Shown: positions 6,360-35,061 of the stretch, one piece after another
Layout of the letters: each line of letters begins with the position of its first letter
Numbering within the stretch: the first letter of the stretch is position 1
Source: Acidimicrobiia bacterium
GTDB taxonomy: Bacteria; Actinomycetota; Acidimicrobiia; IMCC26256; PALSA-555
Length of the DNA: 41,262 nt
Direction of reading: 5' to 3'
NCBI GenBank assembly: GCA_040881685.1
Contig: JBBECS010000010.1
Span: forward strand, 1-41,262
Notes under the pieces: model-generated
What the model was told of the DNA's origin: nothing
Databases searched by the model: none
The model's input: only the letters and a program-made list of their open reading frames with translations
Program-made: the position numbers and the translations under genes

Positions 6360-6818
6360 GTGGCGCAATACCTGCCGATCCTGGCGATGATCGTGCTGGT
6401 CGTGTTGTTCGTGGCGCTCTCGTTCACCGCGTCGAAGCGGCTCGGGCCGCGGCGTCCCACATCGGCCAAGGAAGCGCCGTACGAGTGCGGCATCGTGCCC
6501 GAGCACGAGCCGGCCGAGCGCTTCCCGGTGAAGTTCTACCTGGTCGCGATGGCGTTCATCGTGCTCGACGTCGAGATCATCTTCTTGTATCCGTTCACGA
6601 CGGTGATGCGGCCGTTGGGAACGTACGGCCTCGTCGCGATGGGCGTGTTTCTCATCGTGCTTCTCGTGCCGTTCGGCTATCTCTTGTCGACGGGCGCCCT
6701 TGACTGGGGACCCGCGCGCCGTGTGAGCGCGCGCATCTACGGACGCGTGTTACGCGCGACCGGCACACCCGGACGCGACGGTCTAGACCCCGCGCCCGCG
6801 GAGGAGAAGGTGGCGTAA
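6360..6818 (+). CDS. nuoA: NADH-quinone oxidoreductase subunit A (operon 1)
   Basis: This 152-residue membrane subunit of complex I helps build the quinone-access region with NuoH and NuoJ. Three transmembrane helices are visible (about residues 4-24, 60-80, 88-110). The conserved TMH1-2 loop reads YECG, and the second helix carries the [11 protein letters not shown] acidic motif. The GTG at 6360 is chosen because it directly precedes the canonical hydrophobic N-terminus and has a purine-rich GAGGGGGCGAGG upstream; an in-frame upstream codon would translate the repeat at 6298-6344. It overlaps nuoB1 by one base (TAATG). The C-terminus carries a roughly 30-residue charged tail beyond the usual end. 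Confidence 0.95.
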
Positions 6819-7369
6819 TGGGGATGGAGCAGATCCCCCACAACTTCCTCACGACGCGCCTCGAGGATCTCGTGAAGTGGGCGCGCCGAAACTCCGTGTG
6901 GCCGGCCACGTTCGGCCTTGCGTGCTGCGCGATGGAGATGATGGCCGCCGGCGCCGCGCACTACGACCTCGCGCGCTACGGCATGGAGGTCTTCCGTGCC
7001 AGCCCGCGCCAGGCCGACCTCATGGTGGTCGCCGGACGCCTCAGCCAGAAGATGGCACCCGTCCTTCGCCAGGTCTACGACCAGATGGTCGAGCCGAAGT
7101 GGGTCATCTCGATGGGCGTGTGCGCGAGCACAGGCGGCATGTTCAACAACTACGCGCTCGTGCAAGGGGTCGACCAGATCGTGCCGGTCGACGTGTACGT
7201 GCCTGGTTGTCCACCCGGACCAGAGACCTTGATGCACGGCATCCTCACGCTGCACGAGCAGATCCGAACCGGCGACCTGCTCGCGCGTCGCGGTGCGGGG
7301 CGCGGCGTCGGCATCCAGGTCGAGCAGCGCGACGGCACTCCGGTCGCCGTCCCGGCGCGGTCGGCGTAA
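6818..7369 (+). CDS. nuoB: NADH-quinone oxidoreductase subunit B (operon 1)
   Basis: This 183-residue subunit holds the terminal 4Fe-4S cluster N2, which passes electrons to quinone at the NuoB-NuoD interface. All four cluster ligands are present: the adjacent pair Cys36-Cys37 in [11 protein letters not shown], Cys102 in MGVCAST, and Cys131 in VPGCPPGPE. The [11 protein letters not shown] segment is also canonical. The ATG overlaps the nuoA1 stop (TAATG). The last 25 or so residues form a non-conserved tail. Confidence 0.97.
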
Positions 7370-7394: not shown

Positions 7395-8006
7395 GTGCCC
7401 GACGACGCCACCCCTCGTGAAGAAATTCACAAGGACAACGCGCACCCCGCGCCGACCGAGCAAGCGGCTGCGGCCGGGGTATCCCCGGCCGCAGCGAGCG
7501 AGGCAATGGAGGAAGTTGCCGCGATCGTCGAGAAGTTCCCGGGGACCGTGTTCCACAGCTCGCATGGGCAGCCCGTCGTCTACCTCGACCGCGCGGTGTG
7601 GCACGACGTCGCCGTGTTCCTGCGCGACGAGCAGGAGTTCACGCAGTGCCTCGACGTCACCGTCGTGGACCACCTCGCCGACGAGGTTCGCCTCACAGTC
7701 GACGGCGTGACACCGGAGCGGTTCGAGGTGGTCGCCAACTTGCTCTCGCACCCACGGAACCGGCGCATCCGCGCGATCTGCGAGGTGCCGGTCGACGACC
7801 CCACCGTCGCCAGCGTCACCGACCTATACCCCGGCGCCAACTTCGGTGAGCGGGAGGCCTACGACATGTTCGGCGTCACCTTCGAAGGCCACCCCGACCT
7901 CACGCGCATCCTGATGCCCGACGACTGGGTCGGGTACCCGCTCCGCAAGGACGACGCGCCGGGCCGTGTGCCGGTCGCGTTCAAGGGCGATCCAAGTCCC
8001 CGATGA
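7395..8006 (+). CDS. nuoC: NADH-quinone oxidoreductase subunit C (operon 1), repeat-derived N-terminus
   Basis: This peripheral-arm subunit (30-kDa type) contacts NuoD and NuoB. It is 203 residues from GTG 7395, which has GGAGAGG about 9 nt upstream. The family signature is the C-terminal ERxxYDMFGVxFxGHPDLTRILMPDDW block followed by GYPLRKDD. Residues about 16-40 are encoded by palindromic repeat copy B (peptide AGVSPAAASEAME), so the conserved domain effectively begins at the ATG at 7506. Either the repeat is translated as an N-terminal extension, or its ATG is now the real start. The repeat-free downstream part alone has a normal NuoC length. Confidence 0.93.
   Translation: MPDDATPREEIHKDNAHPAPTEQAAAAGVSPAAASEAMEEVAAIVEKFPGTVFHSSHGQPVVYLDRAVWHDVAVFLRDEQEFTQCLDVTVVDHLADEVRLTVDGVTPERFEVVANLLSHPRNRRIRAICEVPVDDPTVASVTDLYPGANFGEREAYDMFGVTFEGHPDLTRILMPDDWVGYPLRKDDAPGRVPVAFKGDPSPR
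7440..7511 (+). repeat. Palindromic repeat, copy B, in the 5' end of nuoC1
   Basis: A perfect 12-bp stem (7468-7479 with 7483-7494) is capped by GGGGTATCCCC. The left flank from 7440 (GCGCACCCCGCGCCGACC) is shared with the copy at 8017. The right flank GCAGCGAGCGAGGCAATGG carries the in-frame ATG at 7506. Read in the nuoC frame it encodes AGVSPAAASEAME. Confidence 0.85.
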
Positions 8007-8016
8007 CGTGTTTGCC

Positions 8017-8160
8017 GCGCACTCCGCGCCGACCGAGCGAGCGTCCGCGGGCCGGGAGTCGAGTGGCTTTGCCGCTCGACTCCCAGGAGACGGAGCTCGC
8101 GAAGTCGACCAGCAAGGTGGTTCCCGGCCCGCAGCGAGCGAGGCAATGGAGATGAACGAG
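8017..8160 (+). repeat. Palindromic repeat, copy M, with a second repeat nested in its loop
   Basis: The outer stem is GCGGGCCGGG (8047-8056) with CCCGGCCCGC (8123-8132), and the flanks match copy B (left GCGCACTCCGCGCCGACC, right GCAGCGAGCGAGGCAATGG). Instead of the usual 3-nt loop there are 66 nt (8057-8122). The nested module starts with a 14-bp hairpin tipped GGC-TTT-GCC (8054-8067 with 8071-8084), which overlaps the last three bases of the outer left stem. A GGAGACGGAGC linker and GTCGACCAG follow. The excess is 63 nt, a multiple of three, so the frame into nuoD1 stays open. Confidence 0.8.
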
Positions 8161-9450
8161 CACACCGTTACCGGGCTCCCCGCGGCCGAAGAGGAGCGTC
8201 TCAGTCGCCAGACCGACGAAGGCGCGCAAGAGATGCAGCGCGCGCAGCGCGAGATGATCCTCACCGGTGGGCTCTGGCCCGAGGACGACCAGACGATGAT
8301 CGTCAACATGGGTCCGCAGCACCCGTCAACCCACGGCGTGCTGCGCGTGATGATGGAGCTCGACGGCGAGAACGTGCTGCGCGTGAAGCCCGTCATCGGT
8401 TACTTGCACACCGGCATGGAGAAGACCGGTGAAGAGCTGACGTATGTGCAGGGCGGCACGAACGTCACCCGCATGGACTATCTCGCGCCGCTCTCGAACG
8501 AGACCGTGTTCGCGCTCGCGGTGGAGCGGCTGCTCGATCTGGAGCTTCCACCTCGGGCGACCTGGATCCGCATGATGCTGTGCGAGATCTCGCGCCTGGA
8601 GTCGCACTTGCTGTTCCAAGCGACGAATGGCATGGACATCGGGGCGCTGTCGATGATGATCTACGGCTGGCGCGAGCGCGAGGAAGTGCTCCGGTACAAG
8701 GAGTACGTCACGGGTTTGCGGATGAACCACAACTTCATCCGGCCCGGCGGTGTCGCGGCTGACATGCCCGACGGTTGGGAGCAGGCGACCCTCGATCTGT
8801 GTGACACGGTCGAGCGGGGGATGCGCGACTACGAAGATCTGCTCAGCGAGAACCCGATCTGGCTGGAGCGTCTCGTCGGCGTCGGCCCGATCACCACCGA
8901 GCAAGCGTTGGCGCTCGGCGTGTCGGGCCCCATCCTGCGGTCCACCGGTTTCCCGTGGGACCTGCGCAAGGCGCAGCCGTACCTTGCGTACGACCAGGTC
9001 GACTTCGACGTGATCTACACGCAGAACGGCGACTGCTACGACCGCTACCTGATTCGCCTCTACGAGATCCGTGAGTCACTGAAGATCATCCGCCAATGCG
9101 TCGAGCGCATGCCCGCGGGTGACTACCGCGTGCAGGACGCCAAGATCACGCCGCCGCCACGCGCGCGCATCGACGAGTCGATGGAAGCGCTGATCCATCA
9201 CTTCAAGCTCTTCACCGAAGGTTTCCGTGTGCCTCCTGGCGAGACGTACGTCGCAATCGAGTCCCCGCGCGGCGAGATCGGCTGCTACCTCGTCTCGGAC
9301 AGCACCGGCAAGCCCGTCCGGCTACACATCCGCGGCCCGTCCTTCTACAACCTCCAGTCGATGGACGCGATGGTGGAAGGTTCGCTCGTCGCCGACGCGG
9401 TCGCGATCATCTCCAGCATCGACCCGGTCATGGGGGAGGTCGACCGATGA
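8146..9450 (+). CDS. nuoD: NADH-quinone oxidoreductase subunit D (operon 1)
   Basis: This 434-residue 49-kDa-type subunit forms the quinone-binding pocket with NuoB. It shows MGPQHPSTHGVLR with the quinone-site histidines (His59, His63) and the C-terminal FDV...NGDCYDRYLIRLYEIRES and GEVDR blocks. The motif after the first domain reads GYLHTGMEK, with Thr89 where many NuoD/NDUFS2 proteins have Arg (HRG). The HTG form is familiar from actinobacterial NuoD. The ATG at 8146 lies in the right end of repeat copy M; a GTG at 8008, just after the nuoC1 stop, is in frame and would translate the whole repeat, but it lacks a convincing ribosome-binding site. It overlaps nuoE1 by 4 nt. Confidence 0.95.
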   Translation: MEMNEHTVTGLPAAEEERLSRQTDEGAQEMQRAQREMILTGGLWPEDDQTMIVNMGPQHPSTHGVLRVMMELDGENVLRVKPVIGYLHTGMEKTGEELTYVQGGTNVTRMDYLAPLSNETVFALAVERLLDLELPPRATWIRMMLCEISRLESHLLFQATNGMDIGALSMMIYGWREREEVLRYKEYVTGLRMNHNFIRPGGVAADMPDGWEQATLDLCDTVERGMRDYEDLLSENPIWLERLVGVGPITTEQALALGVSGPILRSTGFPWDLRKAQPYLAYDQVDFDVIYTQNGDCYDRYLIRLYEIRESLKIIRQCVERMPAGDYRVQDAKITPPPRARIDESMEALIHHFKLFTEGFRVPPGETYVAIESPRGEIGCYLVSDSTGKPVRLHIRGPSFYNLQSMDAMVEGSLVADAVAIISSIDPVMGEVDR

Positions 9451-23263: not shown

Positions 23264-23629
23264 TTGGTCACAGAGTTCTATCGGGACTATCTCGCGGTGG
23301 CCGTGCTGATTGGCGCGGCGCTGCTCATGGTCGGCGCGATGCTCGGCGCCGGTCGTCTGTTGCGTCCGGTGCGTCCGCAGCCGGAGAAGTACGTCACCTA
23401 CGAAGCGGGGTCCGACCCCGTCGCCGGATGGGGGCAGTCGAATGCCCGCTACTACATCTACGCGTTGCTCTTCTTGATCTTCGACGTGGAAGCGGTGTTC
23501 ATCTTCCCGTGGGCGGTCGGCCTCGAAGGGCTCGACTGGTTCGGCCTCGTCGAAATGACGGTGTTCATCGTGCTGCTCGCGCTCGGCCTCGTGTACGCCT
23601 GGCGCAAGGGAGTGCTGCGGTGGGCGTGA
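23264..23629 (+). CDS. nuoA: NADH-quinone oxidoreductase subunit A (operon 2)
   Basis: This 121-residue three-helix subunit begins the 11-gene operon. It reads [18 protein letters not shown] then [19 protein letters not shown], close to the layout of cyanobacterial NdhC (YESG-x-DPVG, then NxRYY). The loop cysteine of YECG in NuoA1 is alanine here (YEAG). The acidic FDVE motif of helix 2 is kept. The likely start is TTG 23264 with GGAG three bases before it; no ATG or GTG lies closer to the conserved N-terminus. The stop at 23627 lies in the first copy of a 15-nt direct repeat. Confidence 0.93.
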
Positions 23630-23696
23630 CCGAACGACGCGCGGCACACAGCGAACCAGCAGCACGACCCGATGGAGGAGAAGTGCTGCGGTGGGC
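23611..23696 (+). repeat. 15-nt direct repeat flanking a 56-nt insert between nuoA2 and nuoB2
   Basis: AGTGCTGCGGTGGGC occurs at 23611-23625 (last codons of nuoA2) and again at 23682-23696 (start region of nuoB2). After the second copy comes TTAATGG, so deleting 71 nt would give nuoA2 ending GGGCT-TAA with TAATG overlapping nuoB, the same junction as nuoA1-nuoB1. The insert contains CAGCACGACC and ATGGAGGAG, vaguely like the right end of copy E. Confidence 0.8.
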
Positions 23697-24266
23697 TTAA
23701 TGGAGAAGGGCAAGCTGCCGAAGCCGCTCACCTGGCTCCTCAACTACAGCCGTAAGTACTCGCTCTGGATGTTCCAGTGGGGTCTCGCGTGCTGCGCGAT
23801 CGAGATGGGGGCCGCGCTCGCCAGCCCGCGCTACGACATGATGCGGCTCGGCGTCATCCCGTTCCCAGCCAGCCCGCGCCAGGCCGACCTCGTCGTGATC
23901 TCCGGAACCGTCACCGACAAGATGGCGCCGGCCATCAAGCGCCTCTACGAGCAGATGCCCGACCCGAAGTACGTCATCTCGATGGGCGCGTGCGCGAACT
24001 GCGGCGGTCCGTACTGGGACTCGTACTCGGTCACGAAGGGTGTCGACCAGATCATCCCGGTCGACGTGTACGTGCCCGGCTGCCCACCGCGCCCCGAGGC
24101 GTTGCTGCAAGGCATTGTGCTGCTCCAGGAGCGGATCCAGAACGAGGGTCTCGGCAACGACGAGCTCGCGATGCGCTGGCGGGGGCAGCCGAACGGCGAA
24201 GCGATCGGCGGCGGTGCCCTGATGGGTGCCGCGCAGTCGGAGTCCACCGGAGCGAGCGTTGGCTGA
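23691..24266 (+). CDS. nuoB: NADH-quinone oxidoreductase subunit B (operon 2)
   Basis: This 191-residue cluster N2 subunit has ligands Cys34-Cys35 ([10 protein letters not shown]), Cys101 (MGACANCGG) and Cys131 (VPGCPPRPE). It is clearly diverged from NuoB1 but intact. The GTG at 23691 has GGAGGAG about 10 nt upstream; the ATG at 23700 is probably the ancestral start, since it would overlap a nuoA stop if the 71-nt duplication were removed. It has a low-complexity C-terminal tail. It overlaps nuoC2 by 8 nt. Confidence 0.95.
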
Positions 24267-25041
24267 CGACACTTCGCCCGACGACGCACCCGAGGACGCG
24301 CCCGCGCCGGAGCCCAACCCCGCGAGCGGCCAGCAAGGCGGTCCCCCGGCCGGAGAGAGCGAGCCAATGGAGCAGCACGATGCGCTGCTGGCGCTTCTGA
24401 AAGGCGCGGGGTTCAACGGGAACGCGATCGTCGAGACCGCCGACGCGCACGGCGGGCTCGTGGTCCGAGTGGCCAACGCTCAGTGGAAGCGCGCGGCCGA
24501 AGTTGCCAAAGAGCACCTCGCGTGCGACTACCTGTCCTTCATCTCGGGCATCGACTGGCAGCCCGCGCCGCGCGAAGGGGACGAGGCCGGCGGTGACTCG
24601 TCGGCGCCGGTGCAACCCACCGAGATGACGTTCGGTGCCGCCGGGTCCGCGGGTCGCTTCCAGGTGTTCGCGCACGTGCAGTCCACCACCAAGCATTGGG
24701 GCGTCACCTTCAAGACCGACGTCGACGACGCCGACCCGCGGGTCGAGTCGTGGGTGCCGGTGTACGCAGGCGCCGACTGGCACGAGCGCGAGTGCTGGGA
24801 GATGTACGGCTTCACCTTCGACGGCCACCCCAGCCTGCGCCACCTCTACCTACCGTTCGAGTTCGAGGGACACCCGCTGCGCAAGGACTACTCGTTGCTG
24901 GCGCGGTTCGTGAAGCCGTGGCCCGGCCTCGTAGATGTCGAGCCGATGCCCGGTGAGCCGGCGGGGAGCGAGAGTCCCGAAGGGTCGGCCGGGGTAACCC
25001 CGGCCGAATCGAGCGAGCCGTTGGAGACGGGTGAAGCGTGA
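24259..25041 (+). CDS. nuoC: NADH-quinone oxidoreductase subunit C (operon 2), repeats at both ends
   Basis: This 260-residue 30-kDa-type subunit has the conserved [23 protein letters not shown] block and [10 protein letters not shown]. The TTG at 24259 with GGAG 6 nt upstream gives an acidic, proline-rich N-terminus followed by [12 protein letters not shown] from the degraded repeat copy I. The conserved domain starts at the ATG 24367 inside that copy. The C-terminus reads [16 protein letters not shown] from repeat copy H. It overlaps nuoD2 by 4 nt. Either start codon is possible. Confidence 0.9.
24321..24372 (+). repeat. Degraded palindromic repeat, copy I, in nuoC2
   Basis: The right end GGAGAGAGCGAGCCAATGGAG is typical, and the left end keeps GCGAGCGGCCAGC. 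The hairpin has decayed to a partial GGCCGG-type stem and the GGTATCC cap is lost. The ATG at 24367 is in frame with nuoC2. Confidence 0.6.
24976..25024 (+). repeat. Palindromic repeat, copy H, at the 3' end of nuoC2
   Basis: A perfect 10-bp stem TCGGCCGGGG (24985-24994) pairs with CCCCGGCCGA (24998-25007) around TAA. The right flank ATCGAGCGAGCCGTTGGAG has TTG in place of the usual ATG. It is coding in nuoC2 and lies 14 nt before the nuoD2 start. Confidence 0.82.
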
Positions 25042-26201
25042 CCGATCTCCAGATCGATCCCGCGGCCATGCGCCACCTCGCCGAAGCGCAAGTGAACGTC
25101 GAGCTGGACACCGGCGACATGATCCTCAACCTCGGCCCGCAGCACCCGGCCACGCACGGCACGCTGCGCCTCGTCGTGCGTCTGGACGGCGAGCGCGTGC
25201 TCGCCGCCGACCCGGTGATCGGATACATGCACCGCGGCTACGAGAAGCTCACCGAGTTCCGCACGTACCCACAGGTCACCACGCTCATCAACCGCATCGA
25301 CTGGCTCTCGAGCTTCGCCAACGAGGTCCCGTTCATGGACGCGGCCGAGAAGCTCATGGGCATCGAGGCGCCGCCGCGTGCGTATTGGATCCGCACCACG
25401 CTCACCGAGCTGTCGCGCATCGCCACCTTCCTGCTGTTCCTCGGCGAGATGGGCCTCCAGGTCGGCGCGCTCACGCCCGCGTTCTACGGCTTCCGCGATC
25501 GCGAGCACGTGCTCAACCTCATCGAGGCGGCGACCGGCGGGCGCTTCCACCCCAACTTCAACCGCATCGGCGGCCTCAAGGACGACCTCCCGTGGGGGTG
25601 GATCGCCGAGACGCGCTCCACGATGAAGATCGTTCTCGACGCGTGCGACCAGTTCGAAGACCTCGTGCTCGGCAACGAGATCTTCGAGGCGCGCACGCGC
25701 GGCATCGGCATCATCCCCGGCGATATCGGCACGAACTACGGCGTGTCGGGGGCCAACCTGCGCGCGTCGGGCGTCGACTGGGACTTGCGGCGCGACGGCC
25801 GTCCGTACCTCGCGTACCCCGAGCTCGACTTCAAGGTCTGGACGCACACCGACGGCGACTCGTACGCGCGCTACTGGGTCCGACTCCAGGAGACGCGCGA
25901 AGCGGCGCGCATCGTGCTCCAGTGCCTCGAGGGCATGCCAGCCGGCCCGATCATGGCGAAGGTCCCGCGCATCATCAAGGTGCCGGAGGGCGAGGTCTGG
26001 GTCGAGACGGAGAACCCGCTCGGGCAGATGGCGTACTACGTGATCTCGAAGGGCGCGACCGGCCCGTTCCGCGTGAAGATCCGCTCCGCGTCGTTCAGCA
26101 ACGTCTCGATCCTGCCGTGGCTGCTCCAGGGCGTGTTCGTGCCCGACGTGATCACGATCCTCGCCAGCCTCTACTTCATCCTCGGGGACATCGACCGATG
26201 A
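25038..26201 (+). CDS. nuoD: NADH-quinone oxidoreductase subunit D (operon 2)
   Basis: This 387-residue quinone-site subunit shows GPQHPATHGTLR with its two histidines (His36, His40), the GYMHRGYEK motif with Arg66 (Thr in NuoD1), and the C-terminal LGDIDR. The HRG arginine is the position I recall as dimethylated by NDUFAF7 in mitochondrial NDUFS2, and a MidA/NDUFAF7-like gene follows this operon. GTG start in a 4-nt overlap with nuoC2. About 118 nt without a gene follow, containing repeat P copy 2. Confidence 0.95.
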   Translation: MTDLQIDPAAMRHLAEAQVNVELDTGDMILNLGPQHPATHGTLRLVVRLDGERVLAADPVIGYMHRGYEKLTEFRTYPQVTTLINRIDWLSSFANEVPFMDAAEKLMGIEAPPRAYWIRTTLTELSRIATFLLFLGEMGLQVGALTPAFYGFRDREHVLNLIEAATGGRFHPNFNRIGGLKDDLPWGWIAETRSTMKIVLDACDQFEDLVLGNEIFEARTRGIGIIPGDIGTNYGVSGANLRASGVDWDLRRDGRPYLAYPELDFKVWTHTDGDSYARYWVRLQETREAARIVLQCLEGMPAGPIMAKVPRIIKVPEGEVWVETENPLGQMAYYVISKGATGPFRVKIRSASFSNVSILPWLLQGVFVPDVITILASLYFILGDIDR

Positions 26202-26319: not shown

Positions 26320-27360
26320 GTGATCTCCTTGTTGTCGCCGATCGCGCTCGACATCGGTTGGGGCACCACGCTCGCGATCAAGACGATCGTGGTGCTGGCC
26401 ATCATTCCGGCCGGCGCGCTCATCCTTGGCTACGTCTTCCTGCTCAAGGTGATGAGCCACATGCAGAGTCGGCTCGGGCCGATGGACCCCGGCGGATTCC
26501 ACGGCTGGTACCAGCTCATCGGTGACGGCCTCAAGTTCCTCCAGAAGGAAGACGTGATGCCTGCGCAGGCCGACCGGCGTGTATTCGCCGCCGCGCCCGC
26601 GGTCATCGTGCTGTCCACTTTCCTCGTGTTCGCGGTGATCCCGATGGGTCCCGACCTCGTGGTGAAGCCGCTCGACGTCGGCGTGTTCTACGCACTGGCA
26701 GTGTCGAGCCTGTCGGTCATCGGTGTACTGATGGCAGGCTGGGCGAGCGCCAACAAGTTCGCGTTGCTCGGTGCGCTGCGCGCCGCCGCGCAGCTCATCG
26801 CGTACGAGCTACCGCTGCTGCTCGCGGTGGTGGGAGTGGTCGTGCAGGCCGGCACGATGAACCTGCAGGAGATCGTCGGTGCGCAGCAGAACGGCGAGAT
26901 GTTCGGGTTCGGAGCCCTGGGCAATCCATACATCTTCACGCAGTTCATCGGCTTCGGCTTATTCCTCGTTGCGTCGCAAGCCGAGCTCACGCAGACACCC
27001 TTCGACATGCCCGTGGCCGAGAGCGAGCTGGTCTCGGGGTACATGGTCGAGTACACGGGCTTCCGCTTCCTCTTCTTCTTCATCGGCGAGTTCGGGACCG
27101 CGTTCGGGTTCGCGGCCCTCGCGGCGACGCTGTTCCTCGGTGGTTGGTCGATCCCGGGTGTGCACGGCGACTGGGCCAACATCCTCGGGCCGGGCGTGCT
27201 CTTCGCCAAGCTCATGATCGTGGCCTTCCTCATGTTCTGGGTTCGCTTCACATATCCGCGCCTTCGCGAGGACCAGCTCCAGGCGCTCGCGTGGAAGTTC
27301 CTCATCCCGATCGGCCTCGCCAACATCCTCCTTACTGGCGCACTCAAGGTGGCCTTCTGA
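26320..27360 (+). CDS. nuoH: NADH-quinone oxidoreductase subunit H (operon 2)
   Basis: This 346-residue membrane subunit has about eight helices. The first matrix-side loop reads [18 protein letters not shown] (residues 49-66). RxGP is kept, but the usual RAGPxG is replaced by DPGGFHG. The acidic quinone-channel loop [20 protein letters not shown], followed by [10 protein letters not shown], is canonical. GTG start with GAGAAGG directly upstream. It overlaps nuoI2 by 1 nt (TGATG). Confidence 0.94.
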
Positions 27361-27842
27361 TGGCGTTTCCCAAGCCTCCTGGCCTGCTCAAGGGATTGGG
27401 CGTCACGCTCAAGACCATGCTCAAGCCCGCGGTCACGGTGCAGTACCCGCACGAGAAGGAAGCACCTGCGCCCCGAGCCCGCGGCGTGATCGCACTCAAG
27501 GAGGAGAACTGCACGGTCTGCATGCTGTGCGGTCGTTCCTGCCCCGACTGGTGCATCTACATCGAGGGCCACAAGGAGCAACGCCCGCCGCGTCGCGAAG
27601 GCGGGCGCCCGCGCTCGGTCAGCGTGCTCGACCGCTTCGACATCGACTACGCGCTCTGCATGTACTGCGGCATCTGCGTCGAGGTGTGCCCATTCGACGC
27701 GCTCTTCTGGAGCCCCGAGTACGAGTACTCCGAGTTCTCGATCTCGAACCTGCTGCACGACAAGGCCAAGCTCGGCGAGTGGATGGAGTCCGTCCCCGAG
27801 CCGGAGCCCCTGGAAGCCGGCGCTGAAAGTGGCAAGAAATGA
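27360..27842 (+). CDS. nuoI: NADH-quinone oxidoreductase subunit I (operon 2)
   Basis: This 160-residue two-cluster ferredoxin subunit has ligands Cys51, Cys54, Cys57 and Cys61 ([11 protein letters not shown]) and Cys100, Cys103, Cys106 and Cys110 ([11 protein letters not shown]). In a complex without NuoEFG it would be the entry point for electrons, from ferredoxin or an unidentified partner. It lacks the tandem-repeat tail of NuoI1. Repeat copy G follows the stop. Confidence 0.95.
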
Positions 27843-27933: not shown

Positions 27934-28440
27934 ATGTGGGAGCGGGACATCGCCTTCTGGGTCATCGCGTTGGCGATGGCTGCCGCGTCGCTCGGCGTTG
28001 TGCGGTCGCGAAACGTCGTCCACGCCGCGCTGTTCCTCGTCGTCGTGCTCGCTGGCGCCGCCGCGATGTACATCCTGCTCGTGGCCGAGTTCGTGGCCTG
28101 GGTGCAAGTGCTGATCTACATCGGCGCGGTCGTGATCCTGTTCCTGTTCGGCATCATGCTCACCCGCGCGCCGATGGGAGCCGAGGAGGGCCAGCTCGAC
28201 AACGACCAACGGTGGGCGGCCGGGGTCGTCGCGCTGTTCGTGCTCGGCGTCCTGGTCGCGCTCCTCGTCGACGCGTTCGGCGGCAAGGAGATCGTGTTCA
28301 ACGACGCGCTCGTCCAGCGGGGTCGAACCGCCGCGGTGAGCGATTCCCTCTTCCGAGACTTCCTCGTCCCGTTCGAGGTCGTCTCGATGCTGTTGCTCGC
28401 CGCGCTCGTCGGCGCGGTCGTCCTGGCGCGGCGGGACTGA
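27934..28440 (+). CDS. nuoJ: NADH-quinone oxidoreductase subunit J (operon 2)
   Basis: This 168-residue five-helix membrane subunit has [18 protein letters not shown] and the third-helix [16 protein letters not shown] conserved. It ends shortly after the last helix (VVLARRD), the normal end for the family, in contrast to the extended NuoJ1. The ATG at 27934 has no strong ribosome-binding site; the repeat hairpin ends about 20 nt upstream. Confidence 0.94.
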
Positions 28441-28448
28441 GGGGCACC

Positions 28449-28748
28449 GTGGAGCTCAACTACTTCCTCGTCCTCTCCGCGTTCCTGTTCTGCGTCGGCG
28501 TGTACGGCGTGCTCGCTCGCCGCAACGGCGTCCTCGTGCTCATGAGCGTCGAGCTCATGCTCAACGCAGTGAACATCAACCTGATCGCGTTCTCGGCGTT
28601 CAACGCCGACATCGGGGGTCAGATCTTCGCCTTGTTCGTGATCACCATCGCGGCGGCCGAGGTCGGCGTCGGGTTGGCGATCGTGCTGCTCATCTACCGC
28701 AACCTCCGGAGCCCCGACCTCGACAAGATCGACCAGCTCAAGGGCTGA
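28449..28748 (+). CDS. nuoK: NADH-quinone oxidoreductase subunit K (operon 2)
   Basis: This 99-residue three-helix subunit keeps both conserved glutamates, in [19 protein letters not shown] and in [21 protein letters not shown] start at 28449 with GAGGGG 5 nt upstream. It is followed 3 nt later by nuoL2. Confidence 0.95.
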
Positions 28749-28751
28749 CGG

Positions 28752-30821
28752 ATGCTCGACGCCGCCTGGCTCATCCCCACGCTTCCCGCGGTCGCGTTCG
28801 CCGCGATCCTCTTCTTCGGCAAGCGCGCGCCCAGGCACGGTGCCGAGATCGGCATCGCCGCGGTTGGCGCGTCGTTCCTGCTCTCGTGCGTTGCCCTGGT
28901 GGAGTGGATCCACCGCGTCGAGGAAGCGACCGGCGGCGAGTCCCATGGTCTCGCCGCGCTCGGCAAGAGCGTCTTCGCCGCGGCGAGCGAGCACGGCGCC
29001 GTCGAGCCGGTCGTGAACACGGTCACCTGGTGGACGAGCGGCGGTACCGAGTTCGGCGTCGGAACGACAGTCGACGGCCTCACCGTGATGATGATGTTCG
29101 TCGTCACGCTGATCTCGCTGCTCGTGCAGATCTACTCCACCGCGTACATGCATGAGGACAAGCGCTACACGTGGTTCTTCGCCGCACTGTCCCTCTTCAC
29201 GGCCTCGATGCTCACGCTCGTGGTCTCCGAGAACCTCCTCCAGCTCCTCGTCGGGTGGGAGCTCGTCGGCTTGTGCTCGTTCATGCTCATCGGGCACTGG
29301 TGGGAGGACCGCGCCAACAGCCGCGCCGCCATCAAGGCGTTCCTCACCACCCGGGTCGGGGACATCGGTCTGGTGATCGGCGTCATCGTGGTGTTCTTCG
29401 CCGCCAACACGTTCAGCATTGTCGGGATCAACGAGTACGCGTTGAGCAGCGGCGCGGAGCACGACCTGCTCATGGCCGGCGCGCTGTGCCTGTTCATCGG
29501 GATCATCGGCAAGAGCGGCCAGTTCCCCCTGCACACGTGGCTGCCCGACGCGATGGCGGGTCCCACGCCGGTCTCTGCGCTCATCCACGCGGCCACGATG
29601 GTGGTCGCGGGTGTGTACCTCGGTGCCCGCGTGTACCCGGTGTTTTACGAGGGCTTCTCGATCGCCGACGGGGGACTCAACTTCATGGCGCTGATCGGCG
29701 GCGTCACGATCATCATCGGAGCGGTCCTCGCCTTCGTTCAGCGCGACATCAAACGGGTGCTCGCGTATTCGACGATCAGCCAGCTCGGCTACATGGTCAT
29801 GGCGTTGGGTGTCGGCGCGTGGACCGCGGCCGTCTTCCACCTGTTCACGCACGCCTTCTTCAAGGCGCTGCTGTTCCTCGGCGCGGGATCGGTGAGTCAC
29901 TCCGGGGCCCACCACTCGTTCGACATGAAGGCCGACATGGGCGGTCTGCGCAAGCACATGCCGATCACGTTCGCCACCTTCATGATCGGTTCGCTCGCGC
30001 TCGCCGGGATCTTCCCGCTCGCCGGGTTCTGGTCGAAGGACGAGATCCTCGTGACCGCGGGGGAGAACGGGTTCGACATCTTCCTGGTCGTCGGCCTCAT
30101 CGGCGCCTTCCTGACCGCGGCCTACATGACCCGCTGCGTCTACCTCACGTTCTTCGGTGAGTACCGCGGTCACGGTCACCCGCACGAGTCGAGCCGCGCG
30201 ATCACCGTTCCCCTGATGATCCTCGCCGCTTTCTCGGTGCTCGCCGGCCTCGTCAATGCGGTCCCGCTCGGCATCGAGCGGTTCACCGAGTGGTTCGAGC
30301 CCACCTTCGCGTTCCCGCACCTGGTGCACGCGGAGTTCGACTACGGGTTGGCCGTCGCGTCGGTGTCGATCGCCGCCATCGGCATCGGGATCGCAGCATT
30401 CCTCTGGTTCCGCCGGGAGGAGCTCGGGCCTTTCCGCGGTCTCACGCAGCGCAACGCGCTCGCTCGTGGCGGTTACACGTTCCTCGAGAACAAGTACTAC
30501 CTCGACCACCTCTACGAGAACGTGATCGTCGACGGAATACGCGGTGCCGTGGGTCGCGCGGTCTACTGGTTCGACCAGCACGTGGTCGACGGGATCATCA
30601 ACGGTGTCGGGCGCGGCGCCGCTCGCACGGGTCGATTCACCTACGACCTTCTCGACCAGCGCCTGGTCGACGGCTCGATCAACGCGCTCGCCGCCGGCAC
30701 CGGCGACGCCGGCAGTGCCGTGCAAACCGTGCAGTCCGGCCGGGTGCAGCGCTACGCGCTGCTGTTGTTCGCCTCCGTCGGGGTCATGGCCCTTTTCGTG
30801 TTCCTCGTCAACACACTCTGA
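28752..30821 (+). CDS. nuoL: NADH-quinone oxidoreductase subunit L (operon 2)
   Basis: This 689-residue antiporter-like pump subunit has the glutamate of GWELVGLCSFMLIGHWWED, the lysine of IGKSGQFPLHTWLPDAMAG, and DIKRVLAYSTISQLGYMVMA. The loop after YLTFFGEYRG is short (about 10 residues), which gives a direct control for the roughly 70-residue repeat-built loop in NuoL1. The C-terminal amphipathic helix and last transmembrane segment are present. Confidence 0.96.
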   Translation: MLDAAWLIPTLPAVAFAAILFFGKRAPRHGAEIGIAAVGASFLLSCVALVEWIHRVEEATGGESHGLAALGKSVFAAASEHGAVEPVVNTVTWWTSGGTEFGVGTTVDGLTVMMMFVVTLISLLVQIYSTAYMHEDKRYTWFFAALSLFTASMLTLVVSENLLQLLVGWELVGLCSFMLIGHWWEDRANSRAAIKAFLTTRVGDIGLVIGVIVVFFAANTFSIVGINEYALSSGAEHDLLMAGALCLFIGIIGKSGQFPLHTWLPDAMAGPTPVSALIHAATMVVAGVYLGARVYPVFYEGFSIADGGLNFMALIGGVTIIIGAVLAFVQRDIKRVLAYSTISQLGYMVMALGVGAWTAAVFHLFTHAFFKALLFLGAGSVSHSGAHHSFDMKADMGGLRKHMPITFATFMIGSLALAGIFPLAGFWSKDEILVTAGENGFDIFLVVGLIGAFLTAAYMTRCVYLTFFGEYRGHGHPHESSRAITVPLMILAAFSVLAGLVNAVPLGIERFTEWFEPTFAFPHLVHAEFDYGLAVASVSIAAIGIGIAAFLWFRREELGPFRGLTQRNALARGGYTFLENKYYLDHLYENVIVDGIRGAVGRAVYWFDQHVVDGIINGVGRGAARTGRFTYDLLDQRLVDGSINALAAGTGDAGSAVQTVQSGRVQRYALLLFASVGVMALFVFLVNTL

Positions 30822-30837: not shown

Positions 30838-32385
30838 ATGGAATGGTTCGATGACTGGGCGTTGACCCTGGCGGTCTTCCTCCCCCTCGTCGGCATGGTG
30901 CTCGTGCTGCTGATCCCACGAGCACAAGAGCAGGCGATGAAGGTGACGGCGCTCCTCACGGCGCTCGTCACCGGCGCCGTCGGCATCGGCATCATGGTCG
31001 ACTTCAACTACGAGGCGGGCGGCAAGCTCCAGTTCCAGGCCAACGAGTCGTGGATCGACGTCATCAAGAGCCGGTACCACGTGGGCATCGACGGCATCGC
31101 GCTGCCGCTCCTGATCCTGTCCATGCTGATCGTGATCGCCTGCATCATCTACTCCTGGGACCACTTCCCCGAGCCGCGCAACATCAAGGGCTTCCTCGCG
31201 CTGATCCTGTTGCTCGAGGTGGGCATGAACGGCACGTTCGTTGCCCAGGACCTCATCCTCTTCTTCATCTTCTTCGAGCTCGTCCTGCTCCCGATGTTCT
31301 TCATGATCGGCGTGTGGGGTGGCCCCAACCGCGAGTACGCGTCGATCAAGTTCTTCTTGTTCACGCTGTTCGGCTCGGCCCTGATGCTCGTGGGCTTCCT
31401 GGCGCTGTTCTTCGTGTCGAAGCAGCAGACCTTCGACATGGTGGAGCTCTCCAACTTCGCGGGCGCCGGGATCGATCACACGACGCAGATGCTCATCTTC
31501 GGGGGCTTCTTCCTCGGGTTCGCGATCAAGGTGCCGATGTTCCCGTTCCACACCTGGCTGCCCGACGCACATACCGAAGCGCCAACCGTTGGCTCGGTGC
31601 TGCTGGCGGCGATCCTGCTGAAGCTCGGCACGTACGGATTCATCCGCATCGCGCTGCCGATGCTCCCCGACGCGGCTGCCGACTGGGCGCCGTTCATCGG
31701 CCTGCTCGCGGTCATCGGCATCATCTACGGCGCGCTGTGCTGCCTCGCGCAACGAGACATGAAACGCCTGATCGCGTTCTCGTCGGTGGCGCACATGGGC
31801 TTCGTGATGCTCGGGATCGCCACGCTCACCGACTTCGGCCTCAATGCAGCCGTCTTCGGGATGGTCGCGCATGGCCTCATCACCGGCATGCTCTTCTTCA
31901 TCGCCGGGTCGGTGCAGGAGCGCTACGAGACGCGCGAGATGAGCCGGCTTGGAGGCCTGCTCACGCAAGCGCCCAAGCTCGGGTGGATCCTCGGGTTCTG
32001 CACGATGGCGTCGCTCGGGCTGCCTGGGCTCGCCGGGTTCTGGGGTGAGTTCCCGGCCGTCCTCTCCGCCTACTCGCCCGCCAAGGTGCTCGATGGCCTC
32101 GTCGGCGACGGCAGCGCGTTGTGGACGTATCGCACGTACATGGTGATCGCGGCGATCGGCACGGTGCTCGCGGCCGGCTACCTGCTCGTCATGCTGCAGC
32201 GCGTTGCCTTCGGCGCACCCAAGTCTGAGTTCGAGAGCGCGCACATCCACGATCTGCATGTGCCCGAGTGGCTCGCGTGGACACCGCTCCTGCTCCTGAT
32301 CGTCGCGCTCGGCATTTACCCCAACCTGCTGTTCGACGTCACCGACGGCGCGGTCGGGAGCGTCACGAAGGTCTTCGGGGGCTGA
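30838..32385 (+). CDS. nuoM: NADH-quinone oxidoreductase subunit M (operon 2)
   Basis: This 515-residue antiporter-like subunit shows YHVGIDGIALPLLILSMLI, FFIFFELVLLPMFFMI with the pump glutamate, FAIKVPMFPFHTWLPDAH with TEAPTVGSVLLAAILLKLG, and DMKRLIAFSSVAHMGFVMLG. The ATG at 30838 is preceded by AGGGGAG about 10 nt upstream; the frame is open into nuoL2 but that part is out of frame with the real nuoL2. Confidence 0.96.
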   Translation: MEWFDDWALTLAVFLPLVGMVLVLLIPRAQEQAMKVTALLTALVTGAVGIGIMVDFNYEAGGKLQFQANESWIDVIKSRYHVGIDGIALPLLILSMLIVIACIIYSWDHFPEPRNIKGFLALILLLEVGMNGTFVAQDLILFFIFFELVLLPMFFMIGVWGGPNREYASIKFFLFTLFGSALMLVGFLALFFVSKQQTFDMVELSNFAGAGIDHTTQMLIFGGFFLGFAIKVPMFPFHTWLPDAHTEAPTVGSVLLAAILLKLGTYGFIRIALPMLPDAAADWAPFIGLLAVIGIIYGALCCLAQRDMKRLIAFSSVAHMGFVMLGIATLTDFGLNAAVFGMVAHGLITGMLFFIAGSVQERYETREMSRLGGLLTQAPKLGWILGFCTMASLGLPGLAGFWGEFPAVLSAYSPAKVLDGLVGDGSALWTYRTYMVIAAIGTVLAAGYLLVMLQRVAFGAPKSEFESAHIHDLHVPEWLAWTPLLLLIVALGIYPNLLFDVTDGAVGSVTKVFGG

Positions 32386-32389
32386 CCGC

Positions 32390-33853
32390 ATGAACGCGCC
32401 GCAGATCGACTACCACGCGCTCGCGCCGGAGATCGTCCTCACCGGGACGATCGTCGTCGTGCTGCTGGTCGACCTGTTCGCGCGGCGTTCCGATCTCGTA
32501 CCGCGGCTCGCGAGCATCGGAGTGCTCGGTGCGCTCATCCCCGTGTTCACGCTCGCGGTCGACGGCGCCGACCGGTCCATGTTCGGTGGCGCATACGTCG
32601 TCGACAACTACGCCCTCGTGTTCAAAGGCTTGTTCCTGATCGTCGCGTATCTCACGATCCTGCTTGCGTTCAACTACATCGGCGAGGGCGACTACTACCG
32701 CGGCGAGTTCTACGTGCTGATCCTCACGTCCGTGCTCGGGATGACGGTCATGGCGTCAGCTCGTGACCTCATCACCATCTTCGTGGCCCTCGAGACGATC
32801 ACGATCCCCACGTTCGCGCTCGCGGCTTGGCGCAAGCACGACACGAAGTCCAACGAGGCGGGGCTCAAGTACTTCCTGATCGGGGTGATCTCGACCGCGA
32901 TCATGTTGTACGGGATGTCACTGGTGTACGGCGTCACGGGCGCCAACAAGCTCGTCGACATCGCCGGATACATCAACGCACACTCGGTGCCACCGCTCTT
33001 CGCCGTCGGCGTGTTCCTCACGCTGACCGGCTTCGCGTTCAAGGTGAGCGCGGTGCCGTTCCACTTCTGGGCCCCCGATACCTACGAGGGCGCGCCCACC
33101 CCGGTCACGGCGTTCCTGTCGGTCGCGTCCAAGGCCGGTGGCTTCGTGGCGATGATCTCGATCCTCAAGATCGGCTTCTTCTCGTCCGACGATTCGTGGC
33201 AGCCGATCATCTATGCCCTTGCGGCGGCATCCATGACGCTCGGGAACCTCGCCGCACTACGCCAGACCAACATCGTGCGCATGCTCGCGTACTCATCGAT
33301 CGCGCAGGGCGGCTTCATGCTCGTCCCGCTCGCGGTCGCGGCCGACGTGACCAGTAACTCCGCCTGGGAAGGCGTCGTCATCTATCTCCTGATCTACGCC
33401 GGCATGAACATCGGTGCGTTCGCGGCGGTGATCGCGGTGGCGCGGCGCACCGGATCGGGCGAGATCTCGAGCTACGCCGGGCTCGGCCGCAGCGACCCCG
33501 CGCTCGCTCTGATGATGACGATCTTCCTGTTCTCGCTGGCCGGCATCCCGTTCTTCGCAGGCTGGTTCGCCAAGCTGGTGATGTTCCGTGCCGCGTTCGA
33601 CTCGGGCACCACGGGCGCGGTGATCCTCGGCGTGATCGCCGCGGTGAACGCGGTCGTGGCCTTCTTCTATTACGCCGGTGTCGGCCGTCAGATGTGGTTC
33701 CGCGAGCCCGACCCGGCAACAGAGCGCAGCACGGTGCCCACGCCGCTTGCGCTCAACGCCGCGATGTTCATCGTCACCGTCGGCGTCCTCGCCGTCGGCG
33801 TGTACCCACAGGCCATCGCCCGCCTCGGCGAGCTCGCCTTCACACCGGGGTAG
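32390..33853 (+). CDS. nuoN: NADH-quinone oxidoreductase subunit N (operon 2)
   Basis: This 487-residue antiporter-like subunit is the last nuo gene of operon 2. Motifs: IFVALETITIPTFALAAW with the pump glutamate, GLKYFLIGVISTAIMLYG, GFAFKVSAVPFHFWAPDTY with EGAPTPVTAFLSVASKAGGF, and NIVRMLAYSSIAQGGFMLV. It starts 4 nt after the nuoM2 stop. The methyltransferase gene begins 17 nt downstream, probably in the same transcript. Confidence 0.96.
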   Translation: MNAPQIDYHALAPEIVLTGTIVVVLLVDLFARRSDLVPRLASIGVLGALIPVFTLAVDGADRSMFGGAYVVDNYALVFKGLFLIVAYLTILLAFNYIGEGDYYRGEFYVLILTSVLGMTVMASARDLITIFVALETITIPTFALAAWRKHDTKSNEAGLKYFLIGVISTAIMLYGMSLVYGVTGANKLVDIAGYINAHSVPPLFAVGVFLTLTGFAFKVSAVPFHFWAPDTYEGAPTPVTAFLSVASKAGGFVAMISILKIGFFSSDDSWQPIIYALAAASMTLGNLAALRQTNIVRMLAYSSIAQGGFMLVPLAVAADVTSNSAWEGVVIYLLIYAGMNIGAFAAVIAVARRTGSGEISSYAGLGRSDPALALMMTIFLFSLAGIPFFAGWFAKLVMFRAAFDSGTTGAVILGVIAAVNAVVAFFYYAGVGRQMWFREPDPATERSTVPTPLALNAAMFIVTVGVLAVGVYPQAIARLGELAFTPG

Positions 33854-33870
33854 CGCAACCCACGAGCACC

Positions 33871-35061
33871 GTGACGCTCGAAGCGCGGATTGCGGCGCGG
33901 ATCCGGCGGGAGGGTCCGATCGCGTTCGCCGACTTCCAGGCGATGGCACTCTACGACGAGCCCGACGGGTTCTTCACCGGTGGCGGTGGCGCGGGGCGCG
34001 GCGGGCGCGACTTCATGACCAGCCCCGAGGTCGGGTCACTGTTCGGTGCGCTCGTCGCCCGCCATCTCGACGCGGTCTGGCACCGCCTCGACGCGCCCGA
34101 CCCGTTCGTGGTTGTAGAGGTCGGTGCCGGCCGCGGTCGCCTCGCCGCCGACGTGTTGCGCGCGGGTCCGGGATGTGCGCCAGCGTTGCGCTACGTCTTG
34201 ATCGAGCGCTCGGCGCGGCTGCGCGCCGAGCAGCGCGAGCTCCTCACGCTCGAGCCCGCCGACGAAGCGCTAGGGCCGTTCGCTCGCCGCGCCGACCTCG
34301 ACGAGCCGCTGGAAGCGGTGCCCGGGTCCGGACCGATCGTGAGCTCGCTGGACGACCTCCCGGCCATGTCCCTCGACGGTGTCGTCATCGCCAACGAGCT
34401 CCTCGACAACCTGCCCGTGCACCTCGTGGAACGCGTCGAGGGCGAGTGGAGCGAGGTCCGCGTGCGGCTCGACGACGAAGAGCGATTGGTCGAAGCGCTC
34501 GTTCCCGCGCCACCCGAGCTCGCGATCGAGGCCGATCGCGTCGGGTCCGCCGACGTGCCCGGCGGGAGCCGGCTCCCGATCCCGGTCGCGACCAAGGACT
34601 GGCTCGAGCGCATCGCGATGCTGCTCGACCACGGCGAGGTGCTGTTGATCGACTACATGGACGATGTGCGCGGGCTGCTGCAGCGCGGCCAAGCGAGCTG
34701 GTTGCGCACCTACGCCGGTCACGGTCGCGGTTCTGCCCCGCTCGACGCCCCGGGTCATCAGGACATTACGTGCGACGTGCCGATCGAGTACCTCGGCTTG
34801 GCGGCGGCACGCGCCGGGTTCACGATCGCGGGCGAGACGTCGCAAGCCGAGTGGTTGGCGGGGCTTGGCGTTGACGAGCTCGTCGCGGCAGGCGACGCCA
34901 CATGGCGCGACCGCGCGCATATCGGAGATCTCGAGGCCATCGCGGGGCGCAGCCGCGGCGTCGAAGCCGCGGCACTCACCGACCCCGACGGGCTGGGTGC
35001 ACACCGCGTCGTCACTCTCACAGTCGGAGCGGCGAGCGTTCCAAAGGACGGCGGTAGGTGA
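33871..35061 (+). CDS. MidA/NDUFAF7-like SAM-dependent methyltransferase
   Basis: This 396-residue protein belongs to the family that includes mitochondrial NDUFAF7 (MidA), a complex I assembly factor reported to methylate an arginine of NDUFS2, the NuoD equivalent. Family features are the N-terminal GPIAFADFQAMALYDEPDGFF, DFMTSPEVGSLFGALVARHL, the SAM-binding VEVGAGRGRL (about residues 82-91), and VVIANELLDNLPVHLVE. The GTG start at 33871 is 17 nt after nuoN2, so it is likely cotranscribed with operon 2. That placement supports NuoD2 as substrate, but the activity is inferred. Its stop codon lies in the first hairpin of repeat copy K. Confidence 0.87.
   Translation: MTLEARIAARIRREGPIAFADFQAMALYDEPDGFFTGGGGAGRGGRDFMTSPEVGSLFGALVARHLDAVWHRLDAPDPFVVVEVGAGRGRLAADVLRAGPGCAPALRYVLIERSARLRAEQRELLTLEPADEALGPFARRADLDEPLEAVPGSGPIVSSLDDLPAMSLDGVVIANELLDNLPVHLVERVEGEWSEVRVRLDDEERLVEALVPAPPELAIEADRVGSADVPGGSRLPIPVATKDWLERIAMLLDHGEVLLIDYMDDVRGLLQRGQASWLRTYAGHGRGSAPLDAPGHQDITCDVPIEYLGLAAARAGFTIAGETSQAEWLAGLGVDELVAAGDATWRDRAHIGDLEAIAGRSRGVEAAALTDPDGLGAHRVVTLTVGAASVPKDGGR

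Follow-up and report, generated by a model that had tools for sequence, protein, structure and literature searches.

A MidA-family methyltransferase gene linked to the arginine-type NuoD of a second complex I in an Acidimicrobiia genome

The methyltransferase gene and the two complex I clusters

Does a methyltransferase encoded at the end of a complex I operon act on one of the two NuoD proteins of its host and leave the other alone? The window (the whole stretch of DNA analyzed, 41,262 nucleotides) contains two complex I gene clusters (Table 1). Among the genes of cluster 1 are nuoF and nuoG. In cluster 2, nuoE, nuoF, and nuoG are absent between nuoA2 (23264) and nuoN2 (33853). The original prediction, made from the sequence of this locus, placed a methyltransferase gene 17 nt after nuoN2 and proposed that its product modifies NuoD2 but not NuoD1. 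The spacing is correct (nuoN2 stop, 33853; midA start, 33871), and the gene, here termed midA, belongs to the NDUFAF7/MidA family.

The midA protein matches Pfam family Methyltransf_28 (PF02636) with an E value of 8.4e-42 and a score of 143.8 bits (curated cutoff, 23.3), and a genome-wide search found this family in single copy in the host. Its AlphaFold2 model (mean pLDDT, 88.4) has the overall fold of solved MidA/COG1565 proteins. In the PDB, the model most closely resembles Dictyostelium MidA (5ztz; E = 6.6e-27, TM 0.78), followed by the bacterial COG1565 structures 4f3n, 4g67, and 1zkd, with all other methyltransferases far weaker. Sequence identity to these solved relatives is only 20 to 28%. 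Nonetheless, the SAM-fold motifs VE-GAG-G, NE-LD, DY, and PG--DIT are kept across 15 aligned family members, and G87, N175-E176, D179, D261-Y262, G295, D298, and T300 are invariant in that alignment.

The conserved motifs bear on whether MidA might instead be a NuoD2-binding assembly chaperone, with a methyltransferase activity that is secondary or lost in the host. Human and Dictyostelium NDUFAF7 directly bind NDUFS2, as a chaperone would, but a methyltransferase-dead Dictyostelium mutant gives no rescue (PMC9006661). Given this result and the retention of the SAM-fold motifs, we regard a chaperone-only role as highly improbable.

Table 1. Features of the two complex I clusters and midA (window positions)
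Feature	Coordinates	Strand	Basis or remark
nuoB1	6818..7369	+	PDB matches 8e9g_B and Thermus 2fug_6
NuoB1 Arg74 codon, Arg half of switch	7037..7039	+	Gapless alignment to Thermus Nqo6 Arg83
nuoD1, proposed non-substrate	7966..9450	+	ORF; closest PDB chain 8e9g NuoD
NuoD1 Thr149 codon, position of NuoD2 Arg66	8410..8412	+	Motif alignment
nuoA2	23264..23629	+	ORF; sequence resembles nuoA2 of locus L306
nuoB2	23691..24266	+	PF01058
NuoB2 Thr73 codon, Thr half of switch	23907..23909	+	Sequence comparison; Thr as in mitochondria
nuoC2 (true start uncertain)	24226..25041	+	PF00329
nuoD2, proposed substrate	25038..26201	+	PF00346
NuoD2 Arg66 codon CGC, equivalent to bovine/human NDUFS2 Arg85, proposed dimethylation site	25233..25235	+	Motif alignment
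nuoH2	26320..27360	+	PF00146
nuoI2, two 4Fe-4S motifs	27360..27842	+	Fer4 families
nuoJ2	27934..28440	+	PF00499
nuoK2	28434..28748	+	PF00420
nuoL2	28752..30821	+	ORF
nuoM2	30838..32385	+	ORF; start at MEWFDDW
nuoN2	32390..33853	+	ORF; stop 17 nt before midA
midA (NDUFAF7/MidA-family, PF02636 methyltransferase)	33871..35061	+	396 aa, GTG start, uninterrupted ORF

The proposed target arginine and its counterpart in NuoB

The site modified by NDUFAF7 is Arg85 of human NDUFS2, the last residue of the peptide KCDPHIGLLHR (PMC3829151). At the equivalent position, Pichia and the bacterium Paracoccus denitrificans carry a symmetrically dimethylated arginine, whereas E. coli has the unmodified residue and Thermus has Thr (PMC3750175). 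The published peptide and these homologues identify the methylated residue as the arginine of the LHRG motif, as first proposed, and not a residue elsewhere in the protein (PMC3829151, PMC3750175). The aligned motifs likewise agree with the proposed contrast between an HRG and an HTG protein: NuoD2 reads DPVIGYMHR(66)GYEK and NuoD1 reads KPVIGYLHT(149)GMEK, with residue numbers that follow the ORF starts used. Annotated NuoD starts are uncertain, and that of nuoD1 is probably too far upstream. NuoD2 thus supplies, in the same cell as MidA, the arginine-bearing NuoD that a substrate has to be, while NuoD1 has Thr. The glycine after the target arginine is dispensable, as NuoD proteins with HRA and HRS motifs occur alongside MidA.

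In a published intersubunit arginine switch, the Thr of Thermus NuoD is paired with Arg83 of NuoB (Nqo6), and the arginines from either subunit occupy the same space by cluster N2 (PMC8042128). The host genome has both states, NuoD1-Thr/NuoB1-Arg (Thermus-like) and NuoD2-Arg/NuoB2-Thr (mitochondria-like). Across the loci examined, adjacent pairs were NuoD-Arg/NuoB-Thr (n = 39), NuoD-Arg/NuoB-Trp (n = 2), or NuoD-Thr/NuoB-Arg (n = 8). No mixed cases were found among these pairs; the arginine is in one subunit, never in both. Judging from the sequences, the arginine of complex 1 is on NuoB, beyond the reach of a NuoD methyltransferase. NuoD1 would therefore escape MidA because it has Thr at the target position, with its complex using the NuoB1 arginine. 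This reciprocal switch formed no part of the original prediction and supports its NuoD2-specific reading.

NuoD2 differs from NuoD1 at a second position. Trp89 of NuoD2 (window 25302-25304) stands at the position of the complex I quinone-headgroup Tyr (bovine Y108, Thermus Y87). The Arg+Trp pair was found in 96 NuoD2 loci, versus Thr+Tyr in NuoD1, which suggests that the quinone or acceptor site of the second complex is altered. In addition, NuoD2-type proteins align to PF00346 with an interruption between profile positions of about 171 and 197, indicating a probable deletion relative to canonical NuoD.

Co-occurrence of MidA and arginine-type NuoD

The census comprised 296 genomes, all from the phylum of the host. 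NuoD was typed with two DNA patterns, and copies missed by these were located with PF00346 and read individually. With the first HRG pattern, 44 MidA-positive genomes apparently had no Arg-type NuoD. In 36 of these genomes, the second NuoD copy proved on reading to have the arginine, and these false counterexamples arose because other residues precede the motif or because it reads HRA or HRS.

PF02636 was matched in 89/296 genomes. These carried Arg-type NuoD (n = 81), Thr-only NuoD (n = 3), or NuoD of undetermined type owing to incomplete assemblies (n = 5). The MidA-negative genomes carried Arg-type NuoD (n = 47), Thr-only NuoD (n = 33), or no NuoD detected by pattern (n = 127). Arg-type NuoD was thus present in 81/84 MidA-positive genomes with a readable NuoD, and Thr-only NuoD in 3/84 of these genomes versus 33/80 MidA-negative genomes with NuoD. 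The association by genome was strong (Fisher P = 1.9e-9), with the 127 genomes without pattern NuoD, which were only partly profile-checked, outside the test. A test on family majorities, which partly controls for relatedness, gave 29 families with Arg-type NuoD and MidA, 13 with Arg-type NuoD without MidA, 1 with Thr-type NuoD and MidA, and 8 with Thr-type NuoD without MidA (P = 0.002). Widespread presence of MidA with only HTG-type NuoD had been named as the observation that would count against the original prediction; such genomes number 3 of the 84.

In one of these three (G279; loci L169/L199), midA and an isolated nuoB of the nuo2 type are divergently oriented, no further nuo2 gene was found nearby, and the assembly may lack nuoD2. 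The other two (G208 and G092) are the remaining apparent exceptions. G189, G124, G167, and G092 each encode at least two MidA paralogues, and the family may therefore have further substrates.

The expectation that midA tracks HRG-type NuoD held in one direction only. MidA predicts Arg-type NuoD, but the converse, that Arg-type NuoD implies MidA, was dropped in view of the 47 Arg-type genomes without MidA. This number includes two genomes reversed by a MidA profile based on 15 proteins, which detected MidA in 2/14 rechecked negatives (G022 and G267); the G267 gene lies at a contig end beside nuoD2. A nuo2 subclade with Arg-type NuoD is MidA-less (families f23, f27, f38, f45, f52, and f71), and PF02636 is absent from the E. 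coli control genome. As Arg-type NuoD is common without MidA and the E. coli arginine is unmodified, the mark appears to be dispensable in some lineages. MidA also accompanies Arg-type NuoD proteins of other clades, which have Tyr, not Trp, at the quinone position.

Linkage of midA to nuoD2

Of the MidA-positive genomes, 60 have both NuoD types. In 40/60, midA is no more than 20 kb from the Arg-type nuoD, and in 0/60 is it that close to the Thr-type nuoD. The arrangements vary and include midA at the operon end, in tandem, and convergent. At Acidimicrobiia-type loci, nuoN2 is directly upstream of midA in 76/80 cases, typically no more than about 140 bp away, and the gene downstream encodes an acetyl-CoA synthetase in 70/80. 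Four loci titled Bifidobacterium breve (L205, L234, L236, and L270) have this Acidimicrobiia-type midA context, and the L205 MidA shares 74% identity with the window protein; these titles are probably wrong.

Because midA adjoins nuoN2, not nuoD2, in the Acidimicrobiia-type operon, its nuo2 neighborhood could also reflect a MidA-fold enzyme that modifies another target in or near the second complex, such as another Nuo subunit or quinone. The occurrence of MidA paralogues in some genomes is compatible with this explanation, and NuoD2 is a substrate that we infer. Genomes in which nuoD2 has left the operon help to separate the two explanations. In families f20, f21, f32, f41, f44, f55, f58, and f61, nuoD2 is apart from the other nuo2 genes. 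The operons of G023, G049, G204, and G085 (L305-L308) pass from nuoC2 directly to nuoH2, and whole-genome searches found nuoB2 and nuoH2 together, with the sole second NuoD gene distant and adjoining midA. The displaced nuoD2-midA pair is about 200 kb from nuo2 in G023, 316 kb in G049, and 288 kb in G204. A displaced nuoD2 adjoining midA was also observed at loci L170-L188. Within family f20, the MidA-less genome G036 retains nuoD2 in the operon, while two MidA-positive relatives have nuoD2 beside midA. Taken together, the displaced genes and the f20 contrast tie midA to nuoD2 itself and not to the operon. As midA is beside the relocated nuoD2 and not beside other nuo2 genes, and as known homologues modify exactly the NuoD Arg85 equivalent (PMC3829151, PMC3750175), a different target is improbable.

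The same genomes speak to shared ancestry alone, under which midA would travel with the nuo2 cluster with no substrate relation to NuoD2. The genomes are related, the family-level association is the weaker of the two, and some families, f15 among them, show no linkage of MidA. However, mere cotransmission accounts poorly for the several arrangements and for a detachment of nuoD2 that requires at least two changes on the NuoD tree, with the displaced gene adjoining midA; we find this explanation scarcely credible.

Proposed function of MidA

Our main reading, to which we assign a probability of about 85%, is that MidA symmetrically dimethylates Arg66 of NuoD2 early in the assembly of the NuoEFG-less second complex I and does not modify NuoD1. 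The original prediction is thus supported by co-occurrence and by linkage to the Arg-type nuoD only. From these data we infer that the MidA protein performs the arginine dimethylation on NuoD2 in the host; the reaction, the site, and a stabilizing role at the NuoD-NuoB junction (cluster N2) are taken from published homologues. MidA would bind newly made NuoD2 and, with SAM, would symmetrically dimethylate Arg66. While the complex is being assembled, the dimethyl mark would then support the junction of NuoD2 with NuoB2 at cluster N2. In human cells, an early complex I assembly intermediate is blocked when NDUFAF7 is lost (PMC3829151).

The mark might further serve as an identity tag that licenses NuoD2 to join the Thr-type NuoB2 and prevents cross-assembly of the two NuoD/NuoB pairs. 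Such a tag would account for the proximity of midA to nuoD2 even after nuoD2 leaves the operon, although we consider this extension rather unlikely.

Comparison with known systems

Mitochondria have one complex I, and mutation of the arginine destroys the N2 cluster; thus, effects of the mark are difficult to tell from those of the residue there. A bacterium with one markable and one unmarkable complex I offers an internal control for the role of dimethyl-arginine by N2. In addition, the pairing of midA with displaced nuoD2 genes suggests a direct relation of enzyme and substrate in bacteria other than Proteobacteria. Only close relatives of the Acidimicrobiia type were recovered when contigs were scanned for MidA, and the comparison across phyla therefore draws on the literature and the control genomes.

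Human NDUFAF7 and Dictyostelium MidA, which act on NDUFS2 (PMC3829151; 5ztz), are like the host protein in family, fold, and a target arginine by cluster N2. Those organisms have one complex I and one substrate, whereas the host has two complexes with the target arginine in only one. Unlike its human and Dictyostelium counterparts, the host midA is clustered with the gene for its proposed substrate.

Symmetric dimethylation of Paracoccus denitrificans Nqo4 Arg65 (PMC3750175) concerns the same HRG arginine in a bacterial complex I. In contrast to Paracoccus, the second complex of the host is NuoEFG-less, the quinone Tyr of its NuoD is replaced by Trp, and a Thr-type complex I is encoded alongside. 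E. coli NuoCD, with Arg249 (PMC3750175), is Arg-type like NuoD2, but its arginine is unmodified and MidA is absent; in this respect, E. coli resembles the MidA-less nuo2 genomes of the census.

Finally, Thermus thermophilus pairs Thr in Nqo4 with Arg83 in Nqo6 (PMC8042128), the same state as host NuoD1/NuoB1. The host differs in having the Thermus-type and mitochondrial-type states together, with MidA linked only to the mitochondrial-type complex.
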